Source of the DNA: Jannaschia pagri
GTDB lineage: Bacteria; Pseudomonadota; Alphaproteobacteria; Rhodobacterales; Rhodobacteraceae
Direction of reading: 5' to 3'
Length of the DNA stretch: 64,000 bases
Assembly (NCBI RefSeq): GCF_019655435.1
Contig: NZ_BPFH01000002.1
Span: forward strand, 558,001-622,000
Every line of letters begins with the position of its first letter. Within the stretch, counting starts at the first letter, position 1. Shown piece after piece: positions 32,305-49,519 of the stretch. A model generated the notes under the pieces. That model made no database searches. It was not told the DNA's origin and saw nothing but the letters and a program-made list of their open reading frames with translations. Position numbers and translations under genes: made by a program.

Positions 32305-33750
32305 TCAAATGCCGTCGATGCAGACATATTTCGTCTCTAGGTAATCCTCTAGCCCTTGGGATCCGCCTTCTTTCCCGAGACCGCTATCCTTCACACCGCC
32401 AAAAGGCGCCTCCACCGTGGTGATCAGGCCGGAGTTGATCCCGATCATCCCGTATTGCAGCCCCTCGTTCAGGCGGAACGCCCGCCCCAAATCCTTGGTG
32501 TAGGCGTAGCAGGCCAGCCCGTAGACCGTGTCATTGGCCATGGCGATGGCCTCCGCCTCGGTCTCGAACCTAAACACGGGCGCCAACGGGCCGAAGATCT
32601 CCTCCGTGGCGAACTTCATCGCCTGGGTCGCGCCGGTGACCACCGTCGGCTCAAAGAAGGTCCCGCCATTGCTATGCCGCGCGCCGCCTGTGACGATCTC
32701 GCCGCCTTGGGCGCGGGCATCTGCCACGAACTCCTCCACCTTCTCGACCGCATCCATGTCGATCATCGGCCCCTGTTCGACGCCGCTTTCCAAACCGTCG
32801 CCGACCTTGAGCGCACGGGTCTTCTCCACCAGCTTCGCGACAAACGCGTCATGCACCGCCGCCTGCACATAGATCCGGTTCGCGCAGACACATGTCTGGC
32901 CCGCATTGCGGAACTTGGACACCATGGCCCCCTCGACCGCAGCGTCCAAATCCGCATCGTCGAACACCACAAAGGGCGCATTGCCGCCCAACTCCATGGA
33001 GACCTTCTTGACCGTATCCGCCGACTGCCGGATCAGCTCCTTGCCCACTTCGGTGGACCCGGTAAACGTGATCTTGCGCACCTCTGGCGCGGCCATCATC
33101 GCGCCCGCGATTTCCCGTGCGGAGCCCGTGACCACATTGACCACACCAGCCGGATAGCCGACCTCCTCGGCCAAGGCGCCCCAGGCCAACCCGCTATAGG
33201 GCGTGGCCGTTGCGGGCTTGGCCACCACTGTACAGCCCACGGCCAGGGCTGGCGCCACCTTGCGCGCCAACATGGACGACGGAAAGTTCCAGGGCGTCAC
33301 CATCCCCACCACGCCAATGGCATGCTTGGTCACCAGAATGCGCCGCCCGTTCACCCCGGCGGGCACGATCTCCCCCTTGGCACGGCGCGCCTCCTCCGCG
33401 AACCAACGGACATATTGCGCACCGATGGCGATCTCACCCATGCTCTCGGCTAGGGGCTTGCCCATCTCGACAGTCAGCAGCTCCGCCAGGTCTTTCTGGT
33501 TGTCCATCAGCGCATCGTGCAGCTTCCACAGCAGGCCGCAGCGCTCCATCAGCGACATATCCCGGAACGCCGAGAAGGCCTCGGCGGCGGCGGCAATCGC
33601 CCGCTCCGTCTCGGCGGTGCCACCGCCAGGAACCGTGCCGATCACCGCGCCATCCACGGGGTTGGTCACATCGATGGTCTTGCCACTGTCTGCCCCCACC
33701 CAGGCGCCGCCGATCAGGTTGGCCTCTTTCATCCAGGTCTGGAATGCCAT
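32305..33750 (-). CDS. Aldehyde dehydrogenase of the succinate-semialdehyde (GabD) type
   Basis: 481-aa NAD(P)-dependent aldehyde dehydrogenase. Catalytic Glu lies in MELGGNAP and catalytic Cys in GQTCVCANR. The second Cys two residues after the nucleophile is typical of GabD-like enzymes. As the last gene of the sugar operon it could oxidise the C3 aldehyde released by the aldolase. In Pseudomonas putida SQ1 a GabD-type enzyme oxidises sulfolactaldehyde to sulfolactate, so that role is an attractive inference. It lies 3 bp downstream of the epimerase gene. Confidence 0.88.
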   Translation of the reverse strand: MAFQTWMKEANLIGGAWVGADSGKTIDVTNPVDGAVIGTVPGGGTAETERAIAAAAEAFSAFRDMSLMERCGLLWKLHDALMDNQKDLAELLTVEMGKPLAESMGEIAIGAQYVRWFAEEARRAKGEIVPAGVNGRRILVTKHAIGVVGMVTPWNFPSSMLARKVAPALAVGCTVVAKPATATPYSGLAWGALAEEVGYPAGVVNVVTGSAREIAGAMMAAPEVRKITFTGSTEVGKELIRQSADTVKKVSMELGGNAPFVVFDDADLDAAVEGAMVSKFRNAGQTCVCANRIYVQAAVHDAFVAKLVEKTRALKVGDGLESGVEQGPMIDMDAVEKVEEFVADARAQGGEIVTGGARHSNGGTFFEPTVVTGATQAMKFATEEIFGPLAPVFRFETEAEAIAMANDTVYGLACYAYTKDLGRAFRLNEGLQYGMIGINSGLITTVEAPFGGVKDSGLGKEGGSQGLEDYLETKYVCIDGI

Positions 33751-33753
33751 GGT

Positions 33754-34713
33754 TTAGTCCTTTGAAAACGAGAAGGTTGTGATCTGATGATAGGTCTCGC
33801 CCGGTCGCAGCGTCGCCTCCGGGAAATCGTCGTGATTGGGCGCATCGGGCCAGACCTGGGGTTCCAGCGCGACCCCGGCATGTGCGCCGTAGCGCCGCCC
33901 GTCCAACCCCGGCACGGGCGGGGACAGCTTGGCCCCGTCATAAACCTGCAAGCCCGGCTCCGTTGTGCAGATGGCCATGGCCACCCCGCTCACGCGGGAG
34001 CGCAGAACACCCACCTGCCGCAAGGCCTCCCGCCCGTCCGACAGACACAGGTTGTGGTCCAGCAACCCGTCCCCAGGCAGCGCCTGCCCGCCGCGGAAAT
34101 CGAACGCCGTGCCGTCAACGGGGGCCACGCCGACCGGGATCAACTCCGCGTCCACGGGCGTATAGCGATCCGCCGCCACGGTCAGAATGTGGTCCGCAAC
34201 GCTGCCGCTATCATCCAGACACCAATAGGAGTGGTGGGCGATATTGCACAGCGTCGCCGCGTCGGCCCGCGCGTGATAGTCGATCCGCAGCGTCGCCTCT
34301 GGACCGCAGCGAAACCGCGCCTCAAGGTGCATCGCACCGGGGTACCCCATCTCGCCGTCGGCTAGGTCGATCTGGAACGCGATCTCGTCGTCACCCTGCT
34401 CCACCACCCGCCAGACGCGTTTGCCGATCCCCGCGCTGCCCCCATGCAGGTGGTGTTTGTCCAGGAAGTTCCGATCCAGCTGGTGGACCTGGCCGTCCAA
34501 GGTGAACCGCCCCTGCGCCATCCGATTGGCACAGCGCCCGACCATCGCACCCATATAGCTGGCGTGACCCGCAGCGTAGCCCTCCAACTGCTCCAACCCC
34601 AGCACCAGGGGCGGGGCATGACCTTCCAGGCGCAGATCGACCAGCGAGGCGCCCCAGTCGGTAAACGTCGCGGTTAGCCCGTGGCCCGAGATGACATATC
34701 GGTTCAGGTCCAT
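33754..34713 (-). CDS. Aldose 1-epimerase (mutarotase) family protein
   Basis: 319-aa galactose-mutarotase-fold protein. It has the GRCANRMAQGRFTLDG segment, catalytic His pair in HHLHGG and NIAHHSYWCLDD, and the C-terminal Glu in GVALEPQVWPDAP. It equilibrates alpha- and beta-anomers; YihR of E. coli, a sulfoquinovose mutarotase, is in this family. ATG at 34713 is chosen; a GTG at 34719 overlaps the upstream stop and is equally possible, giving 321 aa. Part of the sugar operon. Confidence 0.87.
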   Translation of the reverse strand: MDLNRYVISGHGLTATFTDWGASLVDLRLEGHAPPLVLGLEQLEGYAAGHASYMGAMVGRCANRMAQGRFTLDGQVHQLDRNFLDKHHLHGGSAGIGKRVWRVVEQGDDEIAFQIDLADGEMGYPGAMHLEARFRCGPEATLRIDYHARADAATLCNIAHHSYWCLDDSGSVADHILTVAADRYTPVDAELIPVGVAPVDGTAFDFRGGQALPGDGLLDHNLCLSDGREALRQVGVLRSRVSGVAMAICTTEPGLQVYDGAKLSPPVPGLDGRRYGAHAGVALEPQVWPDAPNHDDFPEATLRPGETYHQITTFSFSKD

Positions 34714-34715
34714 GG

Positions 34716-35618
34716 TCACTCTAGCCCCAGATGCGCCGCCACCCGACGGGCCGTCATCTCTGACACCCGCGCGTTGGCCTCAGCTGTCACGCCGCCGATG
34801 TGGGGGGTCAGGATCAGGTTGGGCACGCCCGCGAAGGGGTGCGCGGCCCCCAGCGGTTCCGTCGCGAAGGTATCCAGCGCCGCGCCGCCCAGGTGGCCCG
34901 AGCGGAGCGCGTCGCAGACCGCCCCTTCGTCCACCACGCCGCCCCGCGCCGCGTTCACCAGGATGGCACCGGGTTTCATCCGCGCCAGTGCCGCGCCGTC
35001 GATCAGGTCGCGCGTCTCTTCGGTCAAGGGAACGTGCAGCGAGACCACATCGGCCTGCGCTATGACCTCATCGACAGACACCGCGCGCGCGCCCTCGAAG
35101 TCCTTGGCATAGGGGTCAGCGGCGATCACCTCCATCCCCAGCGCCCGGCCCAGCGCGCCAGTCTTGCGGGCGATCTCGCCATAGCCGAGCAGACCCAGCA
35201 CCTTGCCCGCGATCTCTCGCCCCTGCCCCGCAGGTCCGCGCGGCCAGGCCCCGGCTTCCATCTCGGCGCGCATCATATAGGCCCCGCGTAACAGCACGGC
35301 GGCGGTCGTCACGACGTATTCCGCAACCGATAGCGTATTGGCGCCCACCGCTGGGTAGACCTCGATCCCCCGCGCGGCACAGCCCTCCATGTCGATGTTG
35401 TCGAGGCCCACGCCCAACCGTCCGACGCAGGTGAACCCGGCGCCCAGCAGGTCCCCGCGCACCTGCGTCCGGTTGCGCACGATCAGCGCCCTGGCGGTTT
35501 GAACCATCGTCATCAACGCGTCCGGTCGATCCGGCAGGTCCGGCGCATAGGTCACCTCGGCCCGCGCCCGAAGCCAATCGACCCAAGCCTCATCCATGAA
35601 CTCTGTGATCAGGATCAT
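34716..35618 (-). CDS. D-isomer 2-hydroxyacid dehydrogenase family protein
   Basis: 300-aa NAD-dependent dehydrogenase: substrate strand VGRLGVGLDNID, Rossmann loop GLLGYGEIARKTG, catalytic Arg in NAARGGVVDE, Glu in ATEPL and His in LTPHIGG. It resembles phosphoglycerate dehydrogenase. SlcC, the (S)-sulfolactate dehydrogenase, belongs to the same family, so oxidation of sulfolactate to sulfopyruvate is a possible role here; this is inference. The start MILITEFMDEAW at 35618 is chosen. 112 bp separate it from the gene upstream. Confidence 0.85.
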   Translation of the reverse strand: MILITEFMDEAWVDWLRARAEVTYAPDLPDRPDALMTMVQTARALIVRNRTQVRGDLLGAGFTCVGRLGVGLDNIDMEGCAARGIEVYPAVGANTLSVAEYVVTTAAVLLRGAYMMRAEMEAGAWPRGPAGQGREIAGKVLGLLGYGEIARKTGALGRALGMEVIAADPYAKDFEGARAVSVDEVIAQADVVSLHVPLTEETRDLIDGAALARMKPGAILVNAARGGVVDEGAVCDALRSGHLGGAALDTFATEPLGAAHPFAGVPNLILTPHIGGVTAEANARVSEMTARRVAAHLGLE

Positions 35619-35730
35619 CGCACCAGTCTCCGGTCTCGCGCGCATGGGTCGGCGCCATCGGCGTCTGCACAGGGGGTGCACGGAAGGTGTACGCAGCGAC
35701 GCCCCCATCCCACGGCTAGGTCCAAAACGC

Positions 35731-36825
35731 TCATGGCCCCCGCCCAACCAACGAGATCGCCTGGCCCGAGCGCGCGGATTCCTCCGCCGCCTCGCCCACC
35801 ATCACGGACCAATATCCGTCCTCCAAGGTGACCTCGGGCACACCCTTGCCATCGCGCACAAGCCTCAGAAATCGCTCATGTTGATAGAAGGTCGAGCCGT
35901 GGTGATCCCCCGCGATCAACAACTCGGGCGGGGTATGCACCACCTCCCGCACTTCCTCCTTGAGCGCCCGCACAGACGTCACGAACTCCGCCTCGCGCGG
36001 GGCCCCGTCCGGCGCAAAGCGCGCAGGCCCAGGGATCAAAGCATCGCACCGCGCCCGCGGCCCTGTCACGGCCACGAACTCTTGCCAGTGGGAGCCTTCG
36101 GCGAACATACACAGGTCCAGCATCCCCCTGGTACCATTGGCGAAATCGACGACGACATAGGCATTGTCCACGATGTCCGGGATGCCGCCCGCATAGCGTT
36201 CGTCGCGATGATTGACGTCGACACCTGCACTCGCATAGACCCGCACCGGATCGGACTTCAGGATCAGCCGCATCAAGTCCCAGAAATGGCAACACTTCTC
36301 GACCAGCGTCCCCCCCGTCCGCGCGTTGAAGCGATTCCAATCGTCCACCTTGGGCAGGAAGGGAAAGCGATGCTCCCGGATGGATATCATGCGCGGATCA
36401 CCCGTCGCCCCCTGGTCGATTGCCTGCATAAGCCTTTGAATCGGCGGCATATACCGGTACTCCATAGCCACCCAAATAGGCGCCAGGCGCCCCCGCGACA
36501 TGGACAGCAGATCGCGGCAGTCGGCGGTCGTGGTGGCCAGCGGCTTCTCCACCAGGATCGGCTTCTCGGTCGCCATCAGGTCCTGCAGGATCCCCGCATG
36601 GAGGTCGTTGGGCGCGGCCACCAAATAGACATCGCAGTCGGCGTCGCGCAGCATCTCGGAGGTGGTGGCATAGCCCGTCCCGCCCTGGGCGGTGGCCAAG
36701 GAGAGCGCCCGCATCCCCTCGTCCGGGTCGGCCACGGCGGTCACCGCCGCGCCGTCCAACAGGTTGATATTGCGAATATGTTCCTGGCCCATCATGCCAG
36801 CCCCGATCAAACCGTATCGGATCAT
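35731..36825 (-). CDS. Gfo/Idh/MocA family protein
   Basis: 364-aa protein: Rossmann motif GLIGAGMMGQEH, VEKPLATT, and the signature GGTLVEKCCHFWDLM. It could be a sugar dehydrogenase, or one of the NAD-dependent glycoside hydrolases of the same fold (families like GH109 and GH188, the latter including sulfoquinovosidases). The position inside a sugar-catabolic operon fits either. It overlaps the isomerase stop by 4 bp. Confidence 0.85.
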   Translation of the reverse strand: MIRYGLIGAGMMGQEHIRNINLLDGAAVTAVADPDEGMRALSLATAQGGTGYATTSEMLRDADCDVYLVAAPNDLHAGILQDLMATEKPILVEKPLATTTADCRDLLSMSRGRLAPIWVAMEYRYMPPIQRLMQAIDQGATGDPRMISIREHRFPFLPKVDDWNRFNARTGGTLVEKCCHFWDLMRLILKSDPVRVYASAGVDVNHRDERYAGGIPDIVDNAYVVVDFANGTRGMLDLCMFAEGSHWQEFVAVTGPRARCDALIPGPARFAPDGAPREAEFVTSVRALKEEVREVVHTPPELLIAGDHHGSTFYQHERFLRLVRDGKGVPEVTLEDGYWSVMVGEAAEESARSGQAISLVGRGP

Positions 36826-38147
36826 GCGCCTAGCTCCAGAACCGGGATGCCCAGACCCGCCGCGACCCCGCGCAGCGCCTCGGCATGGTCGCCGTAGACC
36901 AGCGCCATGTGATGCTCCAACCCGCTGGCCATGACGTCCTTGCAGACGGCCTCGGCCCCTCGGTCGAACCGCACCACGCCGCTCGTGCCGGTAAACGCCA
37001 TGGGTCGGTCCAGCACCTCACCGGTCGCGATGACGGCCTGAGCCTGGCCGTAGGCCTGGCTCAAACGGAAGAGCGTCACGCGCCCCGCCTTCAGCGGAAA
37101 CTCCAACAAAAGCGCCTGCTTACGGTTCGTGTGCACCGTCGCCCCCGGCGCGCTTGCGGCCATGGACGCAGGCGCCTGACCACAGTGCCAGACAACGCCC
37201 GTCTCGGCATCCATATCCACCAAATCCGCCAGGAACACCGGCGCGTCCGCCACATCCTGCAAGATCGCCTGGGTCACCGCGCCGTAGACGTCTACCTCAC
37301 AGGCGCAGGGGGTGCGCGCCTCCCCCAGCATCGATACCGGACCACAGACCGCGCCCCCATATTCGGTAAAGGTCTCCGGCCAGCAGCGAATGGCCATTGC
37401 GTCGAACCCACGCTCCGCCTTAAGCCCATCCAGCGCGCCCGCAAGGCGCAGCGACCGGTCCAATTCTCCGGCGTCCAGATCGGCCAGCCCGCCCAGATCG
37501 GCGGCCTTGGCGGCGTAGGGCGCGACCTCCGCGTCGGGCAAGGCCCGCGCACGGGCAAACAGATCAGGCAGCGCAAGCTCCGTCACCCGAGCCCCCGTCA
37601 GCGCCTGCAACGCAGGCCCATCATAGTCGCAGGTGTGGAACCCCTCGGGCCGCTCCCCAATCCGCCCGATCCGCAGGTCCCGCCGGATCGCAACGGGCGC
37701 CGCCTCAGACGGCACCCCAACCCGAGGCTCCACCGGCGCTCCGGTCAACAGCGTGTCTAAGTCGACGCTATCGCCATAGGCCCAGGTGAACCGCCGGTCG
37801 TTCAGGCCCAAAGCGTGGGACAACAGATTGAGGCCGCAGAAGGCATTCAGGCGAAGCCGCCCGCCCAGCCGAGGCTCCGGCACGGCCCAGATGGCGACGG
37901 GTCCCTCAAAACCCATGGCAGCACGGGTGGCAAAGGCCGCATCGGTGAAGGTCACCTGTAATATCAACAGGATATCCGCTCCCGCAACAACCTCCAATGC
38001 CCCCTCGTCCGGCCCCATCAGCAGGTCGCGCGGCCCAATGATCTCATGCCCCGAGGCGTCCAACGCCCACAGCATCGCGGCCAGCTTTTCCTCGGCGAAG
38101 GGCACGTCGAACGTGGGCCGCGCCAGCGGCAGGATCCCCACCTTCAT
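36822..38147 (-). CDS. Sugar isomerase-like protein (L-fucose/L-arabinose isomerase superfamily)
   Basis: 441-aa protein. The N-terminal third (KVGILPLARPTFDVPFAEEK) and the C-terminal half with WPETF, SMLGEARTPCACEVDVYGAVTQAIL (in part) and VHTNRKQALLLEF resemble the fucose/arabinose isomerase fold. It probably interconverts an aldose and a ketose. If the operon is sulfoglycolytic it would replace YihS, which has a different fold; a fucose-isomerase-like enzyme is what I recall for the sulfo-EMP2 route. Overlaps both neighbours by 4 bp. The metal ligands were not assigned. Confidence 0.7.
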   Translation of the reverse strand: MKVGILPLARPTFDVPFAEEKLAAMLWALDASGHEIIGPRDLLMGPDEGALEVVAGADILLILQVTFTDAAFATRAAMGFEGPVAIWAVPEPRLGGRLRLNAFCGLNLLSHALGLNDRRFTWAYGDSVDLDTLLTGAPVEPRVGVPSEAAPVAIRRDLRIGRIGERPEGFHTCDYDGPALQALTGARVTELALPDLFARARALPDAEVAPYAAKAADLGGLADLDAGELDRSLRLAGALDGLKAERGFDAMAIRCWPETFTEYGGAVCGPVSMLGEARTPCACEVDVYGAVTQAILQDVADAPVFLADLVDMDAETGVVWHCGQAPASMAASAPGATVHTNRKQALLLEFPLKAGRVTLFRLSQAYGQAQAVIATGEVLDRPMAFTGTSGVVRFDRGAEAVCKDVMASGLEHHMALVYGDHAEALRGVAAGLGIPVLELGA

Positions 38148-39178
38148 AGGATGTCCCCGTAGCCATGGCGGAACCCGGCAGAGGGATCGACAAAGGCCAG
38201 ACCCGCACCGCCATAAGCCGGATGGGCGTGCCAAGGCGTCGCCTTGGCGTCCGTCAGCGCGTTCAATTCCGCCATGTAGGGCATCGACTCCTGAACCAAT
38301 CCGGCCTTCATCGCCTCCATATCCGGCCAGGCGTTGAACGCATCGAGCCAGATCGCCCGCCCCGCCAAATACCCAGACGCGCCAGCGGCATAGGCGTAGT
38401 CCAAAACCGTCTTGAAATCGCCCTTACCAGCCCCCGCCGACAGCATCACCCAAGGCCGCGCGGCCAGCCTCCCCATCTCATCGAACAGGTCCTGCACGGC
38501 CCTATCGCCGCCCGTGATGCCTTTGGCGGGCACGGGGCTTTCCAGCTTGAAGACGTCCACGCCGTAGTCCGCACCCGCAAAGTGCTCGACCGACCGCAGC
38601 ACGTGGTCCGAATGCTTGGTCGCCATCTCCGTGTACTCGGAGGTCTGCTCCGCATCGTTCTCCACGGGATGCACCAGCAGTTCGAACAGGAACGGGATGT
38701 CGAGGGCTGCGCATAAATCCCCGGTCCGCTTGACGAAATCTTCCTGCGCCACGCGCACCTCTTCCGAGATATCGGGCCGGAACCAGGCCAGCACCTTCAC
38801 CGCATCGCCACCCATCCGCTTGATCTTGCCCACGGACCAATCGTCGATCTCGGCTGAGAAGCGCCCCTGACCCGTGTCCCGAAACAGCGAGTCCTCCAAC
38901 GTCACGATCAGACCCTTGCGTGGGTCGAACGCCTGCCACCCGTGGGGGATCGCGTAATGGGGGTCCAGCAGCATTGCGGTGGAGGACGGCTGCAAAGCCT
39001 CCATCAGCGCGGTCTTGACCTCTGCCACCTTCTCCCACGGGGCCTCGCCCCCATGGGCGGCGGCGATGGGTCCCTTGATCGGCGGGCGCTGATCCACGGC
39101 GGTCATCTTGAAGCGGCCAGCCGCGTCGGACATGCGGCGGAAGCCCAGCTGTTTGCCGGGCGTCAGCGAGAGGGTCAT
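38144..39178 (-). CDS. Class I aldolase of the LacD/YihT family
   Basis: 344-aa TIM-barrel aldolase. Candidate Schiff-base K211 lies in DVFKLESP; other conserved spots are TAVDQR (residues about 26-31) and GASGYLAGRAIW near the C-terminus, which closely resembles the matching part of E. coli YihT as I remember it. The family splits tagatose-1,6-bisphosphate (LacD) or sulfofructose-1-phosphate (YihT) into DHAP and a C3 aldehyde. The start at 39178 overlaps the kinase stop (ATGA). It is longer than YihT by about 50 aa, including a C-terminal extension. Confidence 0.82.
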   Translation of the reverse strand: MTLSLTPGKQLGFRRMSDAAGRFKMTAVDQRPPIKGPIAAAHGGEAPWEKVAEVKTALMEALQPSSTAMLLDPHYAIPHGWQAFDPRKGLIVTLEDSLFRDTGQGRFSAEIDDWSVGKIKRMGGDAVKVLAWFRPDISEEVRVAQEDFVKRTGDLCAALDIPFLFELLVHPVENDAEQTSEYTEMATKHSDHVLRSVEHFAGADYGVDVFKLESPVPAKGITGGDRAVQDLFDEMGRLAARPWVMLSAGAGKGDFKTVLDYAYAAGASGYLAGRAIWLDAFNAWPDMEAMKAGLVQESMPYMAELNALTDAKATPWHAHPAYGGAGLAFVDPSAGFRHGYGDIL

Positions 39179-40017
39179 GGGGTCTCCAGTTCGGTATCTG
39201 TAGGATAGGCGTCCCAACCGCCCGCCCGCGTGCATTTCAGCGCGGCGGCCCGGTTGGCAAATGTGGATGCGGCGATGAGGTCCCGGCCACGCCCGAGGGC
39301 CAGCGCGAAGGCCCCGTGCCACAGATCCCCGGCCCCTAAGGTATCGACGGCTGTGACAGGAACGGCGGCAATCTGCGGGCCATGGGCCCAGTGAACGCCA
39401 TCTGGCCCATTGGTATAGGCGACTAATCCAGGCAAGCGTTTGGCGGCCTCGGCCAGGGCTTTAGGCAAGGCGTCGATCCCACTGAAGTCCCGCAACCCGG
39501 GCGCGCTGAACACCACATGGGTGGCAAGGGCCGCCAGGGGGTCGGGCGTGTATTTCTCTCCGTCGAGAACACCGGGCACCGCCGCGTGCTGCGCGGCCCT
39601 GAGCACGGCCTCGGCGGCCTCCGGCCATCGGCAATCCACCAAAGCCGCGTCACAAGGCGGCACAGCTGGCGGGTCCGACGGCAGGCCATCGCCCGGAAAG
39701 TTCACGATCATCCGCTCGCCCGCCGGGTCCACCATGACCGAACTCAGCGGGGTCCGCCCCCCGCGCGCAAAGGCGGGCCGCACGCCCCGCGCCATCAGCA
39801 TGGCGGCCAATTCGTCGCCCGTGGCATCGACACCCAGCCGCGTGATCAGCGTCACCTCTGCCCCCAATCTGGCGGCGCCCACAGCGGCGTTAGCGGCGCA
39901 TCCCCCACCGATCCGCTCAAACGAGGTCGAGCGATGCTTGCCCTCTCCCACCGGCAGCGCCGCGACCCGCTGGACGTAGTCCATGACCGCGATGCCCGCG
40001 ACAACCAGCCGTGTCAC
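39175..40017 (-). CDS. PfkB/ribokinase-family sugar kinase, YihV-like
   Basis: 280-aa kinase: GGGCAANAAVGAARLGA (residues about 37-53) and the catalytic DTLGAGD with D231. N106 (VNFPGD), R130 (VDCRW), LDGE and ALKCTRAGG resemble the corresponding stretches of E. coli YihV (6-deoxy-6-sulfofructose kinase) as I recall them. It would phosphorylate the ketose before aldol cleavage. Overlaps the peroxidase stop and the aldolase start by 4 bp each. The sulfosugar assignment is inference; fructose- or tagatose-type substrates are alternatives. Confidence 0.82.
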   Translation of the reverse strand: MTRLVVAGIAVMDYVQRVAALPVGEGKHRSTSFERIGGGCAANAAVGAARLGAEVTLITRLGVDATGDELAAMLMARGVRPAFARGGRTPLSSVMVDPAGERMIVNFPGDGLPSDPPAVPPCDAALVDCRWPEAAEAVLRAAQHAAVPGVLDGEKYTPDPLAALATHVVFSAPGLRDFSGIDALPKALAEAAKRLPGLVAYTNGPDGVHWAHGPQIAAVPVTAVDTLGAGDLWHGAFALALGRGRDLIAASTFANRAAALKCTRAGGWDAYPTDTELETP

Positions 40018-41276
40018 CGCTCGACCTCCAATCCGCTTGGGACGGCGTCAGGCACGCCGAGGCGCCCGTATTTGCTGTCGCCGCCTTCCAGTGCGCCGAG
40101 AAACGCCACCAGATCAGCCACATCACCGTCTGTCAGGGCCACAGGCGCGATGTCGACAGTGGCGCGCACCCGGGCCATCTCTCGCGCATCGCTCTGGATC
40201 ACGAAGTCGATGGCCTCCACAGCCGGCGCCTTAGGCAGGCGCGCCAGGTCGGGCGTCCATACGTCTAGGGCGGCCAAGGGATCGGCATGGTGCCGGATGA
40301 TCCCCTCCAACGTCGGATAGGCCCCGTTGTGCCCCCATGGCCCGGTCAGGGTCACGTTGCGCAAGCTGGGCGTGCGGAAGCGGTAGGCGTCCTCCAGGTC
40401 GTCCGTCTCCGCCATGCGGCCCACATCGCGGGGGATTGGGTCGAACCGCCGCGTGCGGCCAGGGCCAAAGGGCGGCAGGGCAAGGGCGTGGAACCCGTGG
40501 TCGGTGAACAACGGCCCGCCGTGACAGGTCGCGCACCCCCCCGCACCAAAGAAGAGGTCATGCCCGCGGGCCTGGGCGGGCGTCAGTTCCCCCTCCCCCG
40601 CAAGCCACAGATCATAGGGGCTGTCGAAGCTGCGCCACTCGCTGTTCATGAAATCCGCCAGCGCGATGGCGATATGGGTGATCGTGACATCCTCGGTCGA
40701 GGGCAGATCGAAGGAAGCCGCCAATGCCTCGCCGTAGGCCGGGATGGTTCGCACCCGCTTAGCCAGGATCGGCCAGCCCAGGTCGATCCGGTCCTGCACT
40801 GCGCCAATCACCTCGTTCTCGCCCGTGTTCCCGGCCATCTCGAACTGCGCGGTCAGTGGAAAGATCGCCTGCACGGCCAAAAGGTTGGGCAACCCTTCGG
40901 GCAGCCATTCCTCGGCGGGCGTGACATAGCCGTTGCCATAGTTCTCGCCATGGCTGACCCGTCCGTCATGGAAATAGGTCGTGAACTCCTTTGCTCCGAT
41001 GTTCCACAAGCCCGGCGCGTTGCGCGGCACACGCTTTCGGATCACATCCAAGCCCTCGCCCACCACGCGCTTTGGCCCGATCCCGCGTCCGCCCTCTCCG
41101 ATGCCAAGGCTCAGCCCGTCGGCAGAAAAGGTCTCATGGTGATGGCAGGTCGCGCAGGAGATGTTCTGATTTCCCGACAGGATGGGATCGTAGAACAGCA
41201 ATTGGCCAATGCGCGCCCGCGCATCATCGAAGGGATGGAACGGCACCTCTTGCGCCGCCAGGGGGGCCCCGGCCAT
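40014..41276 (-). CDS. Di-heme cytochrome c peroxidase / MauG family protein
   Basis: 420-aa protein from the first in-frame ATG. Two CxxCH heme sites are visible: CATCHH at residues 41-45 and CATCHG in the C-terminal half, with further axial-ligand regions; typical of bacterial cytochrome c peroxidases and MauG. It should be periplasmic, yet this ATG leaves only about nine residues before the mature-like sequence. The in-frame codons just upstream encode a signal-peptide-like KRKVFHGILLGAT but lack ATG, GTG or TTG. It leads the kinase gene by a 4-bp overlap. The redox role in this operon is unclear. Confidence 0.82.
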   Translation of the reverse strand: MAGAPLAAQEVPFHPFDDARARIGQLLFYDPILSGNQNISCATCHHHETFSADGLSLGIGEGGRGIGPKRVVGEGLDVIRKRVPRNAPGLWNIGAKEFTTYFHDGRVSHGENYGNGYVTPAEEWLPEGLPNLLAVQAIFPLTAQFEMAGNTGENEVIGAVQDRIDLGWPILAKRVRTIPAYGEALAASFDLPSTEDVTITHIAIALADFMNSEWRSFDSPYDLWLAGEGELTPAQARGHDLFFGAGGCATCHGGPLFTDHGFHALALPPFGPGRTRRFDPIPRDVGRMAETDDLEDAYRFRTPSLRNVTLTGPWGHNGAYPTLEGIIRHHADPLAALDVWTPDLARLPKAPAVEAIDFVIQSDAREMARVRATVDIAPVALTDGDVADLVAFLGALEGGDSKYGRLGVPDAVPSGLEVER

Positions 41277-41297
41277 GGTCGCGCCCAGGAGGATACC

Positions 41298-41765
41298 ATG
41301 AAATACCTTGCGCTTGTGGCCGCGTTGGCCAGCCCTGCGGCGGCGGACATCGAAGATGGACGCGACCTGATGGAAGCCGGTCGCTTTGAAGAGGCCCTGG
41401 CGGCGTTCTGGCCTGCCGCAAGGTCCGGCAATGCCGACGCGGAGGAGCTGATCGGCGTCATGTACGCCCTGGGCCTCGGCGTCGAAAAGGACGAGATCCG
41501 CGCGTTTGAATGGTACCTCCGCTCGGCGATGAAGGGGCATCCGGGCGCTCAATCGGGCGTCGGCTGGTACTATGAGGTCGGGCTGGGCATGCCCGCCCCG
41601 GACTTGGTGCGGGCCTATATGTGGTATGCCCTGTCGGCCATTGGCGGCGATCCCGACGCCGCGATCAGCCAAGAAGAGGTGGTCAAGAAAATGACCCCCG
41701 AGGAAATCGCCAAGGCCCATGATTTGATCGGAGACTACAAGGTCTGGATGTATCCGTTCCGCTAG
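41298..41765 (+). CDS. Secreted Sel1-repeat protein
   Basis: 155-aa protein with a signal peptide (cut after AAA near residue 16) and Sel1-like repeats: AEELIGVMYALGLGVEKDEIRAFEWYLRSA and GAQSGVGWYYEVGLGMPAPDLVRAYMWYALSA (quoted as patterns, about residues 48-115). Such repeats mediate protein contacts. AGGAGG is at perfect spacing. It is divergent from the peroxidase gene and their 5' ends are almost contiguous. Confidence 0.87.
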   Translation: MKYLALVAALASPAAADIEDGRDLMEAGRFEEALAAFWPAARSGNADAEELIGVMYALGLGVEKDEIRAFEWYLRSAMKGHPGAQSGVGWYYEVGLGMPAPDLVRAYMWYALSAIGGDPDAAISQEEVVKKMTPEEIAKAHDLIGDYKVWMYPFR

Positions 41766-41873
41766 CGTCGAAACGCCAGCCGCTGACCGGGCGGACGGAT
41801 TGGTTGGTTTTAACGGGCTGTTCAGGTCTGCGGGGTATGGGTCAGATGCCCTGTCCTGACCCGAGTTTGGCCC

Positions 41874-43439
41874 ATGTCTCCGCCCCTTGCATTCGAACGC
41901 CCAAGGCCACCCCGCACGGCGCAGGATGTCTGGCGCCTGTGCTGCTTGGATCTGGACGCGAACATTCGCCAGGTGCTGTCCCAGGCCAGCGGCGAGACGC
42001 CGGATCAGGTGGCGGCCCCGATCGTGGAACGCACGCGTCAACGGCTGGAGCATGCCTTTCTGCATCCCGACGATCCCCATCTGCCGACCAAACGACAGTC
42101 CCTTGCCGAGGATTTGACCCGGGAAGGTTTGACCTTTCACGATTTTTCGAAACGGCATCAGCAACTCCAAACGCTCATGCTGGCATCCCTCCTGAACCGG
42201 ACGTCGCGGTTCTTGGGCATTGGGTTCGAAGGGGCCGATGCTTTCCTGCGGGCCATGAACGAGGAGTTGATGGCCATGCTGCACGCCTTCAACCACCTGG
42301 ACCAATCGCAACGCAACGATGCCCGCGCCACGCTCGAAGCACGCCTGCGCGATGGTCTGGGGGCCGTGCTGCGCGGCGCCCAGAACGGTGACCTGTCCCA
42401 ACGGGTGGACGACCAGTTTTCCGACCCCGCCCTGGCAGCCATCAGCGGGGATCTGAACGCCCTGATGGAAACCTTGGAGCGGGGGCTCCAGGCCGCGATG
42501 ATGGCTCTGGATGGTCTGGCGCATGGCCGCCTGACGACCCGCATGGAAGGAGTCTTCACAGGCGATTTCAAGGCGCTGCAAGACAATATCTCGACCTCGA
42601 TCAATGCCATGGCCGTGGTCCTGTCGCGCATCCGGGACGCGGCGGCACAGGTGATGCGCGCGGCGAACGCCCTGGACGACCAAGCCCAGGCTCTCCAAGG
42701 GCGCGCCGCTGAGGAAAAGGCCCATCTGACGGTGCTCATGGACGAAGTGGTTGGGTTGCGAGACAGGCTCGACGGCAACCGCGCCGCCGCAGGGGAGGCG
42801 CAGACCGTCCTCGACACCATAGGGGCGGAGGCCGTGGACGCGGGCCAGGGCATGGCCCACATCACAGACACGATGGCGCGCATCGAACGGGGCAGCGCGT
42901 CGGTGCAAAAGCTGACCGAGCTAATCGACACGATTGCCCACCAGACGCACCTTTTATCCCTGAACGCGGCGGTCGAAGCCGCCCGCGCCGGGGAGGCAGG
43001 TCGCGGATTTGCCGTTGTCGCCACGGAGGTGCGGTCCCTGGCCACCCGCGTAACCACGGGGGCCGAGGATATCCGCGCGCTGGTTTCAGAAAACGCCCTA
43101 GAAGTCGCCGAAGGCCGCCGCCGCACGGACGAGACCCGGCAGGTCTTGGACAAGCTCCAAACCAGCCTGTCGGAGATACGCGCCGTGTTCGGGGCCATGA
43201 TCTCCGGCAACGAAGACCAAGCGGCGCGCTTTGGGGCCATTGAGGAAACCATGGGGGCGATGTCTCGATCCATGCAGGAAAACGTCGATGCGGCCGAACA
43301 GGGCGTCACCCTGTCGCGAAGCCTGGCACGGGCCACGCACGGCTTGACCGACCTCGTCGAAGACTTCGAGTTGGACGGCACAGCCGAAGGGGACCAAACC
43401 TGTGAGGCAAACCGCTCAGACGACACGCAGGCCGCCTGA
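41874..43439 (+). CDS. Soluble methyl-accepting chemotaxis protein
   Basis: 521-aa receptor without a transmembrane segment. The C-terminal signalling hairpin contains [23 protein letters not shown] (partial) and [15 protein letters not shown] at about residues 360-395. The N-terminal 130 residues are a helical sensor domain (possibly protoglobin-like, not certain), then a HAMP-like stretch (about 155-245). It is cytoplasmic and presumably senses an internal signal for motility. It lies between the catabolic operon and the TRAP genes on the opposite strand. Confidence 0.88.
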
Positions 43440-43487
43440 GCGAAACATATGGCGCACCCTAAGACTGGGTCCGTGCGCACCAGAGCG

Positions 43488-44555
43488 TCAGTTCAGATCA
43501 GCATCCCGGCGGGCGTTGATCTCTGCCTCGGCCTCGGCGATGGCCGCGCGGAAGGTGGCCAGCATCTCTTCGCCCCCGTCCACGTTCTCGGCAAACCAAT
43601 CGTAAACCGGCGCAGCGGCCTCTTGGAACGCAGCCTTTTGATCCGGCGTCGGCACATAGAGATTACCGCCACCGGCGACGAACTCTTCATAGGCCTGGAT
43701 CGACTTGCGCTTGGGCGAGGCAAAGGTCGCCTGCTGCAAAGCTGAGAAGCCGTCCACGATGACGCGCTTCATGTCGTCGTCCATCTCTTGGAACTTCTGA
43801 TTGTTCATCACCCAGATCGCCGCCATATATGCGTGCCCATCCAGCGTCACATACTGCAGCCCGGCATCCGGGAACTTCATCCCCATGATGTCGGTGATCC
43901 CGTTCTTGGACCCTTCGACCACGCCCGTCTGAAACGAGGTGAACAGCTCCGGCCAGGGGATCGGCGTGGGCGAGGCCCCAAGCGCGCGCACCAACTCCTG
44001 CGGCAGGTCGGCGACGACGGTACGGATCTTCAGACCAGCCAGGTCCTCCGGGTTCTCGACGGGCCGCTGGGTGTTTGCAAAGTTACGCCACCCACCAGTG
44101 TTGCCCACCGTCATAATGCGGATCGTGTCGCCCGAGTCCTCAAGCGCCTTCGCACGCAATTCGGACACAAGGTTGGTCCCGCTCAGGACTTCCTCGGCGA
44201 TCCGGTCATCGGCCATCAGGTAAGGCAGGTCAAAAATCTGCACGTAGGGAAAGATGCCAGCAGCCCCGCCCGAGGTCGTCACGAAGACATCGATAGACCC
44301 ATCGGCCACGCCCTGCAAACACTCGGCCCCATTGCCGCACAGCTGCGTCCCGATGAACAGCTCGACCGAAATCGCCCCGTTCGAGGCATTCTCGACGTAG
44401 TTCTTGAAAACAACCAGACCGTCATAGTCCTCGTCGTTTTCGTTGGAGTTGGCCGTGGCCCGAATGTTGATCGTGTGCCCATCGGCGGCGGCAACGCTGG
44501 GCAGCGCCAGGCTCGCGGCCAAGGCGACGGACGTCAGCAGTGACTTGAGTTTCAT
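43488..44555 (-). CDS. TRAP transporter substrate-binding protein (DctP family)
   Basis: 355-aa periplasmic protein with a signal peptide (VAAADG, cleavage about residue 24). The DctP core includes GLKIRT, whose Arg normally clamps the carboxylate or other anionic group of the ligand, and TSFQTGVVEG. The ligand is therefore an organic anion. Upstream lie DctM and DctQ. It is the last gene of the transporter operon; the ligand could be an anionic sugar processed by the next operon downstream, an inference. Confidence 0.93.
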   Translation of the reverse strand: MKLKSLLTSVALAASLALPSVAAADGHTINIRATANSNENDEDYDGLVVFKNYVENASNGAISVELFIGTQLCGNGAECLQGVADGSIDVFVTTSGGAAGIFPYVQIFDLPYLMADDRIAEEVLSGTNLVSELRAKALEDSGDTIRIMTVGNTGGWRNFANTQRPVENPEDLAGLKIRTVVADLPQELVRALGASPTPIPWPELFTSFQTGVVEGSKNGITDIMGMKFPDAGLQYVTLDGHAYMAAIWVMNNQKFQEMDDDMKRVIVDGFSALQQATFASPKRKSIQAYEEFVAGGGNLYVPTPDQKAAFQEAAAPVYDWFAENVDGGEEMLATFRAAIAEAEAEINARRDADLN

Positions 44556-44584
44556 TTGGTCTCTCTCCCTATTGGACCGGTGAT

Positions 44585-45877
44585 TTATAAGAAGCCGAAG
44601 AACCTGGGCACCGCCAGTGAGATGGCGGGCACGTAGGTGATCAGGAAAATCACAAAGATCTCCACGGCCAGGAATGGCAGGATCGCCTTAGCGATGGTCT
44701 CGACCCGCTCCCCACTGACAGACGAGGCCACAAACAGCACCAACCCCATGGGCGGCGTCGCTAGCCCCACGGTCAGGTTCACCGACATGATGATCGCGAA
44801 ATGAACCGGATCGACCCCCAGCGAGGTGAAGATAGGCCCCAAGATCGGCCCCAGGATGATAATCGCGGGGCCCGCATCCAGGAACATACCGACGATAAAC
44901 AGAAGCAAGTTGATCAGCAGCAGCAAGACCAGCGGGTTCTCGGACAGCGATAGGATAAAGGCCGCCAGGGTCTCCGGCGCGTGGCTCAGCGCCACGACCG
45001 TTTTGAAGGCCAGCGCCGCCCCGACCAGCAGCAAGACGACCGATGAAATCAGCGCCGCCTTGCCGAGGACATCGGGCAGGTCCTTCACGGACATCTCCCG
45101 CAGGATAAAGATCGAGACCACGGCCGCATAGGCCACCGCCACGGCGGAGGCTTCGGTCGGCGTGAAGATACCGCCCAGAATACCCCCAAGGATGATGACC
45201 GGCGTGAGCAACGGGAAGAACGCCTTGAGCGAGGCTTGCCCCTTCTCGGGCCAGGTCGCCCGACGCTTCAGGGCCGGCATTGCGTCCGGATTTCGCCGCG
45301 CCACAAGGTTGGTGACTGTCATCAGGCCAAGGCCCACAAGAACCCCCGGCACAATCCCGGCCAGGAACAGGGCGGCGACCGATTGCTCCATGACATAGGC
45401 GTAGATGATCATGATCCCCGATGGCGGAATGATCGGCCCGATCACCGAGGATGCTGCGGTCACCGCGGCCGCGAACCGACGGGTATACCCCTCTTTCTCC
45501 ATCGCCGGGATCAACATGGACCCCAGCGCGGAGGTATCGGCCACCGCCGACCCGGACAGCCCCGCGAACAGCATGGACGACAGAATATTCACCTGCGCCA
45601 GCCCTGCGCGAAAATGCCCGACGCAGGCCTGGGCAAACTCCACCAGACGCAGGGTAATCCCGCCCCGGTTCATCATCTCCCCCGCCAACATGAAGAACGG
45701 GATCGCCATCAACGGAAAACTGTCCATCCCGTTGTAGGTATTGCGGTAAAGCAGGACGAGGTCCTTCCCCTGCCCGTTCAGCCACAGCAAGATCCCGGGC
45801 GCAGCGAGCAGGGCAAAAAAGACCGGCAGCCCAACCATCAGGAAAATCAGAAAAAGGGGCAGAAACCAAACTAGCAT
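44585..45877 (-). CDS. TRAP transporter large permease (DctM family)
   Basis: 430-aa polytopic inner-membrane protein, with about 11-12 hydrophobic segments. It shows the DctM marks AIPFFMLAGEMMNRGG and SVNLTVGLATPPMGLVLF. It forms the sodium-coupled translocation channel with DctQ. Directly followed by dctP after 29 bp. A repeat-like block lies upstream (45898-45953). Confidence 0.93.
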   Translation of the reverse strand: MLVWFLPLFLIFLMVGLPVFFALLAAPGILLWLNGQGKDLVLLYRNTYNGMDSFPLMAIPFFMLAGEMMNRGGITLRLVEFAQACVGHFRAGLAQVNILSSMLFAGLSGSAVADTSALGSMLIPAMEKEGYTRRFAAAVTAASSVIGPIIPPSGIMIIYAYVMEQSVAALFLAGIVPGVLVGLGLMTVTNLVARRNPDAMPALKRRATWPEKGQASLKAFFPLLTPVIILGGILGGIFTPTEASAVAVAYAAVVSIFILREMSVKDLPDVLGKAALISSVVLLLVGAALAFKTVVALSHAPETLAAFILSLSENPLVLLLLINLLLFIVGMFLDAGPAIIILGPILGPIFTSLGVDPVHFAIIMSVNLTVGLATPPMGLVLFVASSVSGERVETIAKAILPFLAVEIFVIFLITYVPAISLAVPRFFGFL

Positions 45878-45897
45878 AACTGCCCCCGAACCCCTGC

Positions 45898-45953
45898 ATT
45901 AAGGTTAACTCGCACCGTCAAACAGCCGCGCGCCCCTCCCCCCATCACGGGTC
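45898..45953. repeat. Dispersed repeat block, copy A
   Basis: ATTAAGGTTAAC (45898-45909) and CCCATCACGGGTC (45941-45953) lie 31 bp apart between dctM and dctQ. The same two sequences, 10 bp apart, occur at 54961-54995. Both copies are in intergenic DNA. See copy B. Confidence 0.5.
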
Positions 45954-46016
45954 GCAAAATACTCATGACGCTCCGCTCGCCCCCCAGCGTACCGTGGCAG
46001 ACAACAGCGCCGCCCA

Positions 46017-46595
46017 TCACTCCGCCCCCACCGTCGAGGCCATGGGGATCTCCGCCAAATCCCCTCCGCGCCCGGCGAGTGTCGCGATCTGCCGGAGGAT
46101 CAGCTCAAGGGTGACGGAGACCATCATGACAATGCCCACCAGGAGCGACGCCATCATCCAACTGCGGGGCATCTTCTCCCACCCGTCGAGGGTCGGGTAA
46201 TACAAGGACGAGGTCTTGAACCGGCCCGAGAAGCCCGTCACCTCGGACCACCCAATTTGCGCGGCCACGATCAGCACCAACAGCGACAGAAGCAACAGAC
46301 ATAGCGTCAGCACACCACCCACAAATCGGGGCAAGGCCAGTTGGATCATGTCGATGGCGACAAACCCGCCACGCCGCAAAGCGGTCGGCGCCACGACCAT
46401 CAGCCAAAGCATGAGAAACCGCGCCGCCTCCTCGGGCCAGGGCAGCGGGTTGGACAGGACATAGCGCCAAAACACTTGGATCAGGATGAAGACGACCATC
46501 AGTGCCATGCAGACGATGCCCAGCGCGCGCCCAGCCGTCAGAACGGGCGCATTGATCTTCGCCAGCAGGTTCGCCGCTGTGACGTGCCAGGCCAT
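46017..46595 (-). CDS. TRAP transporter small permease (DctQ family)
   Basis: 192-aa protein with four hydrophobic segments and the conserved WRYVLSNPLPWPEEAARFLMLW segment (residues about 38-60). It pairs with DctM. AGGGGAGGA lies at good spacing before the ATG at 46595. The preceding frame to 46691 is not needed. 115 bp downstream of the DeoR regulator gene and probably co-regulated with it. Confidence 0.92.
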   Translation of the reverse strand: MAWHVTAANLLAKINAPVLTAGRALGIVCMALMVVFILIQVFWRYVLSNPLPWPEEAARFLMLWLMVVAPTALRRGGFVAIDMIQLALPRFVGGVLTLCLLLLSLLVLIVAAQIGWSEVTGFSGRFKTSSLYYPTLDGWEKMPRSWMMASLLVGIVMMVSVTLELILRQIATLAGRGGDLAEIPMASTVGAE

Positions 46596-46709
46596 TATTC
46601 CTCCCCTCACGCGGACTCCGCAGTGGAAAGCGATGCTTTCGAAACGGCGCGCGTTGTTTTCGATTTGGGCGGAACCGAAACCACCTGTCAAGAATGAACT
46701 ACAGATCCT

Positions 46710-47471
46710 TCATGACGTGGCGATGACCAGCTCCACCTCACAGGATGCGCAAAGCGGCGCGACCCAGGGCGGCAGCGGTCCCGCCGTCACAAGGGTGTGG
46801 ATGCTCGACAGATGTCCAAAGCGGCACGGGGCCGTGCGGCTGAACTTGCCCGGATCCACGGCCAGGATGATGTGGCGCGCGCCCTCCATCATCGCGCGAC
46901 AGACCTGCACTTCGCCCAGGTCGTAGTCCAACAAAACACCGTCTTCGGCCACAGCCGCCGCGCCGATCACCGCGTGGTCAGGGCGGAACTGGCGCACGTA
47001 GTCCACGGCCTCCGCCCCGAGGATCGCACCATCGCTGCGGCGCACGGCACCCCCGGGAACGACAACCTCAAGCCCCTGAAAAACCCTTATTTCCGATGCT
47101 AGATCGACGTTGTCGACGACGACGCGCAGGTGCTGGGCACGGGTAAGATGGCGGGCGACTTGGGCCGTCGTCGTGCCCGCGTTCAGGAAAACGGCCCCCG
47201 TCGGCGGCAGGCGTGCGGCCACTGCCGCACCGATAGCGATCTTCGCTGGTAGCGCCTCGGTCTCCCGCTCGGCGGGCGTCGCATATTCGGCCCCACCGAC
47301 CAGGGTGGCGCCACCGTGGAACCGCACGATGTGGTGCAGTTCCGCCAAGACCTGCAGATCCTTGCGAATGGTCTGGGGCGAGGTTGCGAAACGCGCGGAG
47401 AGGTCTTCGACCCGCACGCGCGATGTCTCTTCGATCAGCGATAAAATTTTCTGCTGGCGCTGAGTCAGCAT
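46710..47471 (-). CDS. DeoR/GlpR family transcriptional regulator
   Basis: 253-aa sugar-phosphate-sensing repressor: helix-turn-helix VEDLSARFATSPQTIRKDLQVL in part (residues about 20-45) and the C-terminal DeoRC domain with FLNAGTTTAQVA and HAVIGAAAVAEDG. Such regulators bind sugar phosphates; YihW/CsqR, the regulator of E. coli sulfoquinovose genes, is also a DeoR protein. Located upstream of the TRAP genes on the same strand. A hairpin that encloses the Shine-Dalgarno abuts its start. Confidence 0.92.
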   Translation of the reverse strand: MLTQRQQKILSLIEETSRVRVEDLSARFATSPQTIRKDLQVLAELHHIVRFHGGATLVGGAEYATPAERETEALPAKIAIGAAVAARLPPTGAVFLNAGTTTAQVARHLTRAQHLRVVVDNVDLASEIRVFQGLEVVVPGGAVRRSDGAILGAEAVDYVRQFRPDHAVIGAAAVAEDGVLLDYDLGEVQVCRAMMEGARHIILAVDPGKFSRTAPCRFGHLSSIHTLVTAGPLPPWVAPLCASCEVELVIATS

Positions 47472-47569: not shown

Positions 47570-48625
<1,056 letters not shown>

Positions 48626-48627
48626 TC

Positions 48628-49347: not shown

Positions 49348-49519
49348 GCTGTCCGAGAATGCCCCGGGCGGCATCGCGCAGTTCTTCGACCGGGACTTCC
49401 CGGCGGAAATGGCGGCGCTGGGGATGGAAGGTCTCCAGGAATTCATGGTGTTCCCCGACAACCTGGACGACATCCTGGGCCGCTTGGAACAGGCGCGTCA
49501 GCGTATCTACGCCAACTGA
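49346..49519 (+). pseudogene. C-terminal remnant of an ABC sugar-binding protein
   Basis: The plus-strand frame encodes about 57 residues (LSENAPGGIAQFFDRDFP, ...GMEGLQEFMVFPDNLDDIL, ...RQRIYAN) that look like the last helices of an extracellular solute-binding protein of family 1. The upstream part of such a gene, including signal peptide, is absent: left of about 49,345 the DNA encodes the IclR regulator on the other strand. It is followed by the permease genes of the same system, where a binding-protein gene belongs. Confidence 0.65.

Follow-up and report, generated by a model that had tools for sequence, protein, structure and literature searches.

Sulfoquinovose (SQ) is an abundant sulfur sugar of plants and algae and is among the largest organic sulfur pools. 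Roseobacters are described in the literature as users of a monooxygenase route (sulfo-SMO, for sulfoquinovose monooxygenase), and a table in a 2026 review assigns the sulfoglycolytic Embden-Meyerhof-Parnas route (sulfo-EMP) to gammaproteobacteria and actinobacteria, while a passage of its text mentions hybrids in Proteobacteria (PMC12890257). Hybrid sulfo-EMP clusters appear in excerpts of three publications (PMC9594981, PMC10599462, PMC12890257), and the legend of Fig. 5c in Kaur et al. 2023 places Jannaschia faecimaris (A0A1H3MHE8) under representative GH188 sulfoglycolysis/sulfolysis clusters (PMC10755693). Here we describe a locus of Jannaschia pagri in a 64,000-nucleotide stretch (contig NZ_BPFH01000002.1, positions 558,001 to 622,000), referred to below as the window, in which a minus-strand block of enzyme, regulator and tripartite ATP-independent periplasmic (TRAP) transporter genes lies at 32305-47471. 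From the families, residues, synteny and co-occurrence seen in the sequence we infer the reactions, substrates, transport direction and regulation proposed below. The locus is best read as a hybrid sulfo-EMP (sulfoglycolysis) cassette that would degrade SQ and its glycosides up to sulfolactate, a reading to which we give a probability of roughly 0.87. A tail from sulfolactate to acetyl phosphate and sulfite, via ComDE and Xsc encoded elsewhere in the genome, is also favored, with less assurance. Clusters of this kind are already published, and the window holds a further member.

The gene block, which a preliminary description had interpreted as sulfosugar catabolic, is present as named there. 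Read along the minus strand, it runs DeoR, DctQ, DctM, DctP, MauG-like protein, PfkB kinase, DeoC/LacD aldolase, isomerase, Gfo/Idh/MocA protein, D-2-hydroxyacid dehydrogenase, aldose 1-epimerase and aldehyde dehydrogenase. Overlaps of 4 bases join kinase to aldolase, aldolase to isomerase, isomerase to GH188 (the Gfo/Idh/MocA gene) and mutarotase (the epimerase gene) to D-2-hydroxyacid dehydrogenase; the gap between the GH188 and D-2-hydroxyacid dehydrogenase genes is 112 bases. Three further genes inside the interval, absent from the preliminary description, encode MauG-like, Sel1-repeat and chemotaxis-receptor-like proteins. The host genome is 3.9 Mb. For wider comparison we used named loci from a genome-contig search, the best 80 of 302 places with relatives, some of them cut by contig ends and by title mostly from Rhodobacterales and Rhizobiales. 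Genes were counted in them by tblastn with at least 40% of the query covered, and for the kinase and DeoR the window protein and the E. coli counterpart both served as queries, best matches to either being counted. The features are listed below, with numbers of loci out of these 80; gene starts were re-chosen by hand (those of MauG and DctQ are approximate), some family scans used open frames longer than the listed genes, and DctQ and DctM were named from their own sequences (DctQ also from its place) rather than by family scan.

32305..33750, minus: GabD-type aldehyde dehydrogenase of the succinate semialdehyde dehydrogenase (SSADH) kind, proposed sulfolactaldehyde dehydrogenase (PF00171; NCBIfam SSADH models below cut-off; 45 loci)
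33754..34719, minus: aldose 1-epimerase, proposed SQ mutarotase (PF01263; 48 loci)
34716..35618, minus: D-2-hydroxyacid dehydrogenase, phosphoglycerate dehydrogenase (PGDH)-like, proposed (S)-sulfolactate dehydrogenase (PF02826/PF00389; 53 loci)
35731..36825, minus: predicted GH188 NAD-dependent sulfoquinovosidase (PDB matches, residues; 73 loci)
36822..38147, minus: putative SqvD/SftI-type sulfoquinovose isomerase, L-arabinose/L-fucose isomerase fold (SftI model below cut-off, PF02952, fold)
38144..39178, minus: class I DeoC/LacD-family aldolase, proposed sulfofructose-1-phosphate aldolase (PF01791; PRK12858 over cut-off; 71 loci)
39175..40017, minus: PfkB-family kinase, proposed sulfofructose kinase (best PDB match 7ag6; 73 loci)
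40014..~41276, minus: MauG/cytochrome c peroxidase-like di-haem protein, overlapping the kinase start (PF03150, two CXXCH; 61 loci)
41298..41765, plus: small protein with Sel1 repeats and a signal-peptide-like start (by eye), divergent from the MauG-like gene (PF08238; 62 loci)
41874..43439, plus: chemotaxis-receptor-like gene flanked by DctP and Sel1 (with matches in 4 of 16 Jannaschia loci and in 3 of the 80)
43488..44555, minus: TRAP solute-binding protein DctP (PF03480; 67 loci)
44585..45877, minus: TRAP large permease DctM (own sequence; 65 loci)
46017..~46595, minus: TRAP small permease DctQ (own sequence and place; 61 loci)
46710..47471, minus: DeoR-family regulator (PF00455/PF08220; 46 loci, with DctQ the next matched gene in 41)

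In the pathway that we propose, the TRAP transporter would import SQ or SQ-glycerol, the GH188 enzyme would release SQ from its glycoside, and the epimerase would accelerate anomer exchange. The SqvD-type isomerase would convert SQ to sulfofructose, the YihV-type kinase would phosphorylate this to sulfofructose-1-phosphate, and the class I aldolase would split the product into dihydroxyacetone phosphate and sulfolactaldehyde, which the GabD-type enzyme would oxidize to sulfolactate. In the tail, the D-2-hydroxyacid dehydrogenase may form sulfopyruvate, from which ComDE and Xsc would lead through sulfoacetaldehyde to acetyl phosphate and sulfite; a Soe-like complex encoded beside Xsc may oxidize the sulfite.

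The isomerase was found in 17 of 20 Jannaschia genomes, that of the window included, and its neighborhoods in the other 16 were compared over 20 kb each. The grouping goes beyond chance: in 11 of these 16 (L032-L042) the seven enzyme genes are all present and ordered as in the window, and 63 of the 80 named loci combine kinase, aldolase, isomerase and GH188. Three Jannaschia loci (L043, L044, L045) have the kinase and no match to the aldolase, which was likewise unmatched anywhere in the corresponding genomes (G006, G001, G015); L044 moreover gave no match to the mutarotase or the aldehyde dehydrogenase. L046 has no kinase, aldolase, MauG or TRAP match, and from the cassette L047 has the isomerase and GH188 alone. 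The aldolase was matched in 12 of the 20 genomes, all of which have the isomerase. Five named loci from Silicimonas and Boseongicola (L104, L107, L109, L126, L139), in which kinase, SqvD, aldehyde dehydrogenase and D-2-hydroxyacid dehydrogenase alone were matched, with no aldolase, GH188 or TRAP match, are an aldolase-less variant.

The Gfo/Idh/MocA protein had been suspected of being a GH188-like sulfoquinovosidase. Its best PDB matches are 8zn9 (4e-119), 8qc3 (6e-108) and 8qc2 (2e-104), the next chain following at 1e-20; 8QC2 is a GH188 structure according to the text available for PMC11465081. In ArSqgA, as given in excerpts of PMC10755693, the sulfonate is bound by R166, L170 and K172 and the active site comprises K107, Y136, E189, H193 and H321. 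At a constant offset of 13, the window protein has R153, L157 and K159 as its sulfonate triad and K94, Y123, E176, H180 and H308 as its active site, and each of the eight residues is identical in 72 of 72 aligned relatives.

The isomerase, as had been supposed, is not of the YihS type. Its sole NCBIfam match is the SftI sulfoquinovose isomerase model NF048012 (257 bits, 2.8e-76), and it also matches PF02952. Since its sequence gave no PDB match up to E 0.1, and a 15-row profile retrieved only non-significant chains, a NADH dehydrogenase subunit (E 0.5) and an L-arabinose isomerase (E 0.99), a structure model was used, which has the AraA/FucI fold. An hhalign comparison with FucI was itself non-significant (probability 0.8%); its register, counted by hand, pairs E284, D308 and H413 with E337, D361 and H528 of FucI, which we take to be metal ligands, and the three window residues are invariant in a 38-row alignment. 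The closest named homologues are from Jannaschia. Together, sequence and model support, at family level, an SQ isomerase of the SqvD family.

For the kinase, the best PDB match is the sulfofructose kinase 7ag6 (5.2e-50), followed by 2rbc (1.1e-40) and ribokinases. The protein is 39% identical to E. coli YihV, and its N106, R130, K27 and D231 align with YihV N109, R138, K27 and D244. Two of these YihV residues, N109 and R138, are presumably those that bind the sulfonate, and the residue check proposed in the preliminary description thus found N106 and R130 where expected. The position of R138 is R in 72 of 72 aligned relatives. Best PDB match, identity and N106/R130 together class the enzyme with the YihV-type sulfofructose kinases.

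The aldolase fits less closely. Its assignment to the LacD/YihT superfamily stands, and K211 and R274, kept in 70 of 70 aligned relatives, fall at YihT K193, presumably the Schiff-base lysine, and R253. Its best family is, however, PRK12858, "tagatose 1,6-diphosphate aldolase," over the NCBIfam cut-off, and LacD chains outrank YihT among its structural matches, a sign named beforehand as speaking against a sulfosugar role. Because LacD chains carry the same two letters at the K193 and R253 positions, this Lys/Arg pair does not discriminate between substrates, and no aldolase residue was found that separates sulfofructose-1-phosphate from tagatose bisphosphate. None of the papers listed by a literature search named 8tnf, the nearest chain, and no function was found for it.

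At family level, the locus also supports the predicted onward route to sulfolactate and sulfopyruvate. The aldehyde dehydrogenase has W154, N155, R163, E253, R281 and C287 at the RlGabD positions, kept in 44 of 44 aligned relatives, and its third PDB match is 8c54, which we take to be the Rhizobium leguminosarum enzyme. These include residues proposed for sulfolactaldehyde binding in the passages available on RlGabD (PMC10599462); SSADH has them too, and R163/R281 do not separate the two activities. As for sulfonate-processing genes elsewhere in the genome, which the preliminary description had called for, Xsc (900 bits, cut-off 676) and ComDE (ComE 245 bits, cut-off 221.5) were found. SuyB was not: the sole PF04295 match in the genome was rejected as galactarate-dehydratase-like, and SuyA was not searched for there. 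A phosphotransacetylase (Pta) gene adjacent to Xsc scores over the PRK09653 cut-off, and molybdopterin-oxidoreductase genes read as Soe-type lie beside Xsc. On paper, ComDE, Xsc and Pta would suffice to reach sulfite. A PF02595 search of the same genome gave no glycerol kinase match.

Among the 53 named loci with the D-2-hydroxyacid dehydrogenase, ComD and then ComE are the next matched genes after it in 16, and SuyB is present in seven; SuyB and ComDE never occur together, and ComE never occurs without the dehydrogenase. Over all 80 loci, ComD and ComE were each counted in 16, SuyA in nine and SuyB in seven, the SuyAB label being our own, as NCBIfam gives galactarate dehydratase matches only, below cut-off. 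One Hoeflea locus (L089:13338-14814) has a SuyA/SuyB-like pair inside the cassette.

The proposal that the route differs from the roseobacter monooxygenase route is supported at family level: searches of the J. pagri genome gave neither an SsuD-type match (at E 0.001) nor a SmoC-type one (at 1e-80), and it is not classed as a sulfo-SMO genome. We extended this comparison to a sample of 198 genomes from the same family, with each genus represented once and the J. pagri genome included, using thresholds of at least 46% identity for the SqvD clade, at least 51% identity for MauG and E of at most 1e-80 for SmoC-type proteins. The MauG line was drawn after viewing the match list, at a gap between 443 and 412 bits. 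The SqvD clade was present in 18 genomes (25 with some match) and SmoC-type proteins in 87; the two co-occurred in none, against 7.9 expected (hypergeometric probability 1.5e-5, uncorrected for phylogeny).

MauG at this threshold was found in 56 of the 198 genomes (150 had some MauG-family match), distributed as 54 of the 105 with either core and 2 of the 93 with neither (Fisher 1.5e-16). It occurs in 38 of the 87 SmoC genomes, 29 of these 38 having it no more than 20 kb from SmoC; the corresponding figure for SqvD is 12 of 16. In the window, the Sel1 gene (41298-41765, plus) and the MauG-like gene (40014-41276, minus) are divergent with starts nearly touching, and in all 61 named loci that hold both, the two are encoded on opposite strands. 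MauG overlaps the kinase by 4 bases in the window, and the kinase is the next matched gene after MauG in 54 cases. The idea that MauG is linked solely to the kinase operon was rejected nonetheless: in L097, L123 and L130 it lies on the other strand, together with the TRAP genes and away from the enzymes, and 16 SMO-type loci have it after DctP and Sel1.

These SMO-type loci come from 20 MauG neighborhoods of other genera, 19 of them in genomes that lack the SqvD clade; the genome of the other (L249) has SqvD elsewhere. All 20 contain Sel1 and MauG, 17 DctQMP, 16 SmoA-, SmoB- and SmoC-like genes (the roles of which follow excerpts of PMC13372026), and 11 GH188. The remaining three of the 19 genomes without the SqvD clade have a SmoC-type gene elsewhere. 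The best PDB matches of the SmoC-like protein are 7olf (5e-216) and 7oh2 (7e-214), which we take to be SQ monooxygenases, the next chain following at 2e-54. DctP is 68 to 77% identical in 17 of the neighborhoods, 16 of which have Smo-type genes. Quick trees (LG+G4) were built. On that of 84 DctP sequences the label had to switch nine times between EMP and SMO, with starred branches forcing at least three of the switches. A GH188 shared by SMO and EMP loci in the manner of DctP was rejected, since the tree of 80 GH188 sequences (seven from SMO loci) splits EMP from SMO in one change, as two separate clades.

Our own reading of these sequence data is of one SQ import module with two interchangeable catabolic cores. 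MauG and MbnH modify their target proteins. Tentatively, TRAP, MauG-like and Sel1 proteins may form a single module for import of SQ or SQ-glycerol, re-coupled several times to the mutually exclusive sulfo-EMP and sulfo-SMO cores, with the di-haem enzyme working in uptake, its target for modification being, e.g., the binding protein or the Sel1 protein.

A number of findings weigh against the overall picture. At 257 bits versus a cut-off of 700, the isomerase is outside the curated SftI family, a cut-off reached by none of 385 genomes in a class sample, 11 of which match at E 0.001. The aldolase's PDB matches run 8tnf (5.6e-83), LacD chains (1.5e-33 at the strongest) and then YihT-type chains (1e-18 and weaker), and 5 of the 17 Jannaschia genomes with the isomerase gave no match to the window's aldolase. 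The kinase position equivalent to YihV N109 is N in 56 of 72 aligned relatives, A in 13 and S in 3, the A/S kinases being those of L070-L077, L081, L082, L090, L092, L106, L119, L137 and L140. Seven genomes with isomerase relatives of 29 to 34% identity were left out of the 18 in the SqvD clade, and five of them (G445, G467, G478, G559, G566) have SmoC-type proteins. Resemblance to the window's MauG was the basis on which the 20 neighborhoods were picked, which means that 16 of 20 gives no frequency for SMO loci at large. Concerning the tail, ComD of J. pagri clears its cut-off by 0.2 bits only (148.1 versus 147.95), and ComE is over cut-off in 14 of the 20 Jannaschia genomes, 11 of the 17 with the isomerase and all 3 without it. 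Since ComE is present regardless of the isomerase, it and the cassette are not inherited together within this genus, and the expected tracking of the cassette by ComDE was rejected.

This last distribution is one of the points for the best-surviving alternative, which concerns the tail only: sulfo-EMP would end at sulfolactate, which is excreted, and ComDE and Xsc would serve taurine, 2,3-dihydroxypropane-1-sulfonate (DHPS) or cysteate. Xsc lies among genes read as a taurine operon (L028), and ComDE is beside two HisD-family genes read as HpsN-like. The ComDE region (L030:4371-15671) also includes an RbsB-type binding protein, and perhaps is a DHPS/sulfolactate locus. The presence of a D-2-hydroxyacid dehydrogenase inside the cassette, however, implies further oxidation, and this gene is followed by ComDE or accompanied by SuyB in 23 of 53 loci. 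On balance we consider excretion the less likely outcome, and continuation to sulfite the better account of the tail. A tandem route from a sulfosugar to sulfite within one cell is described, for sulfofucose, in the available text on Paracoccus (PMC12421959).

Sulfofucose (6-deoxy-6-sulfo-D-galactose) might itself be the substrate, isomerized to sulfotagatose, phosphorylated and split by the LacD-like aldolase in an EMP-like manner. The tagatose name of the aldolase family and the fucose/arabinose isomerase fold would agree with this, and excerpts on Paracoccus describe sulfofucose use, together with an EMP-like branch that the authors weighed; the route used there, however, is an Entner-Doudoroff one (PMC12421959). 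With 73 of the 80 loci having GH188, a family characterized as hydrolyzing SQ-glycosides, an SQ isomerase as the isomerase's sole family match and a TRAP module common to SmoABC-type loci, we regard a sulfofucose pathway as improbable. Least probable of all is an ordinary cluster for a sugar or sugar acid that bears no sulfonate (of tagatose, inositol or fucose type), with a merely familial likeness to sulfosugar genes, as might be argued from the many ordinary members of the PfkB, LacD, Gfo/Idh/MocA, GabD and PGDH families and from the sugar acids often carried by TRAP systems, since the GH188 sulfonate triad is identical in 72 of 72 aligned relatives, ComDE or SuyB accompanies 23 of 53 D-2-hydroxyacid dehydrogenase loci, and SmoC-type genes do not co-occur with the SqvD clade.

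What makes the sulfo-EMP cassette read here of interest is its breadth, the fact that it excludes the monooxygenase core within the sample, and the di-haem/Sel1 pair of the shared importer. Many marine alphaproteobacteria carry it, and in the 198 genomes sampled it stands in for the monooxygenase route, so that surveys based on SmoC or YihS only would overlook its carriers. SQ uptake has a candidate marker in the TRAP-MauG-Sel1 module, and an importer paired with a di-haem enzyme raises a puzzle of its own. This combination, found beside sulfo-SMO genes too, did not turn up in print among the papers listed by our literature searches; Liu et al. 2023 and Sharma et al. 2021 may say more. Directly upstream of DeoR in the window, at 47570-49473 on the minus strand, are genes for an ATP-binding cassette (ABC) transporter ATPase and an IclR-type regulator, likewise upstream in several Jannaschia and Litoreibacter loci.

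Among the closest known systems is the listed GH188 cluster of J. faecimaris; a locus from this species has DctQ, DctM, DctP, MauG, kinase, aldolase, SqvD, GH188, D-2-hydroxyacid dehydrogenase, mutarotase and sulfolactaldehyde dehydrogenase in the window's order; the A0A1H3MHE8 entry itself is known from the legend only. The sulfo-EMP/EMP2 hybrids in which SqvD replaces YihS likewise combine an SqvD-type isomerase with sulfo-EMP enzymes, as described in passages of PMC9594981 and PMC10599462, and the example given in the former has an SqiA aldolase, whereas that of the window is class I. The actinobacterial Y160/Y158 GH188 clusters (Backlund and Higgins 2024) share with the window, in the available text, a fucose isomerase, sulfofructose kinase, sulfofructose-1-phosphate aldolase (Y160 only), D-3-phosphoglycerate dehydrogenase, sulfolactaldehyde dehydrogenase and GH188; their transporters are of the ABC type, they include genes for sulfolactate sulfo-lyase, and position 170 of their GH188 is Tyr (PMC11465081), in contrast to the TRAP genes, Leu157 and failure to find SuyB here. 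The yih sulfo-EMP system of E. coli also uses a PfkB kinase, a class I aldolase, a mutarotase-family protein and a DeoR-type regulator. The window differs from it in its isomerase, in having GH188 rather than GH31 and TRAP rather than YihO, and in that sulfolactaldehyde would be oxidized, not reduced. Roseobacter sulfo-SMO clusters, finally, have the same TRAP-Sel1-MauG module, and a GH188-family gene in 11 of 20 stretches; unlike the window, they carry a monooxygenase core, and their GH188 proteins (7 of the 11 being in the tree) belong to a separate clade.

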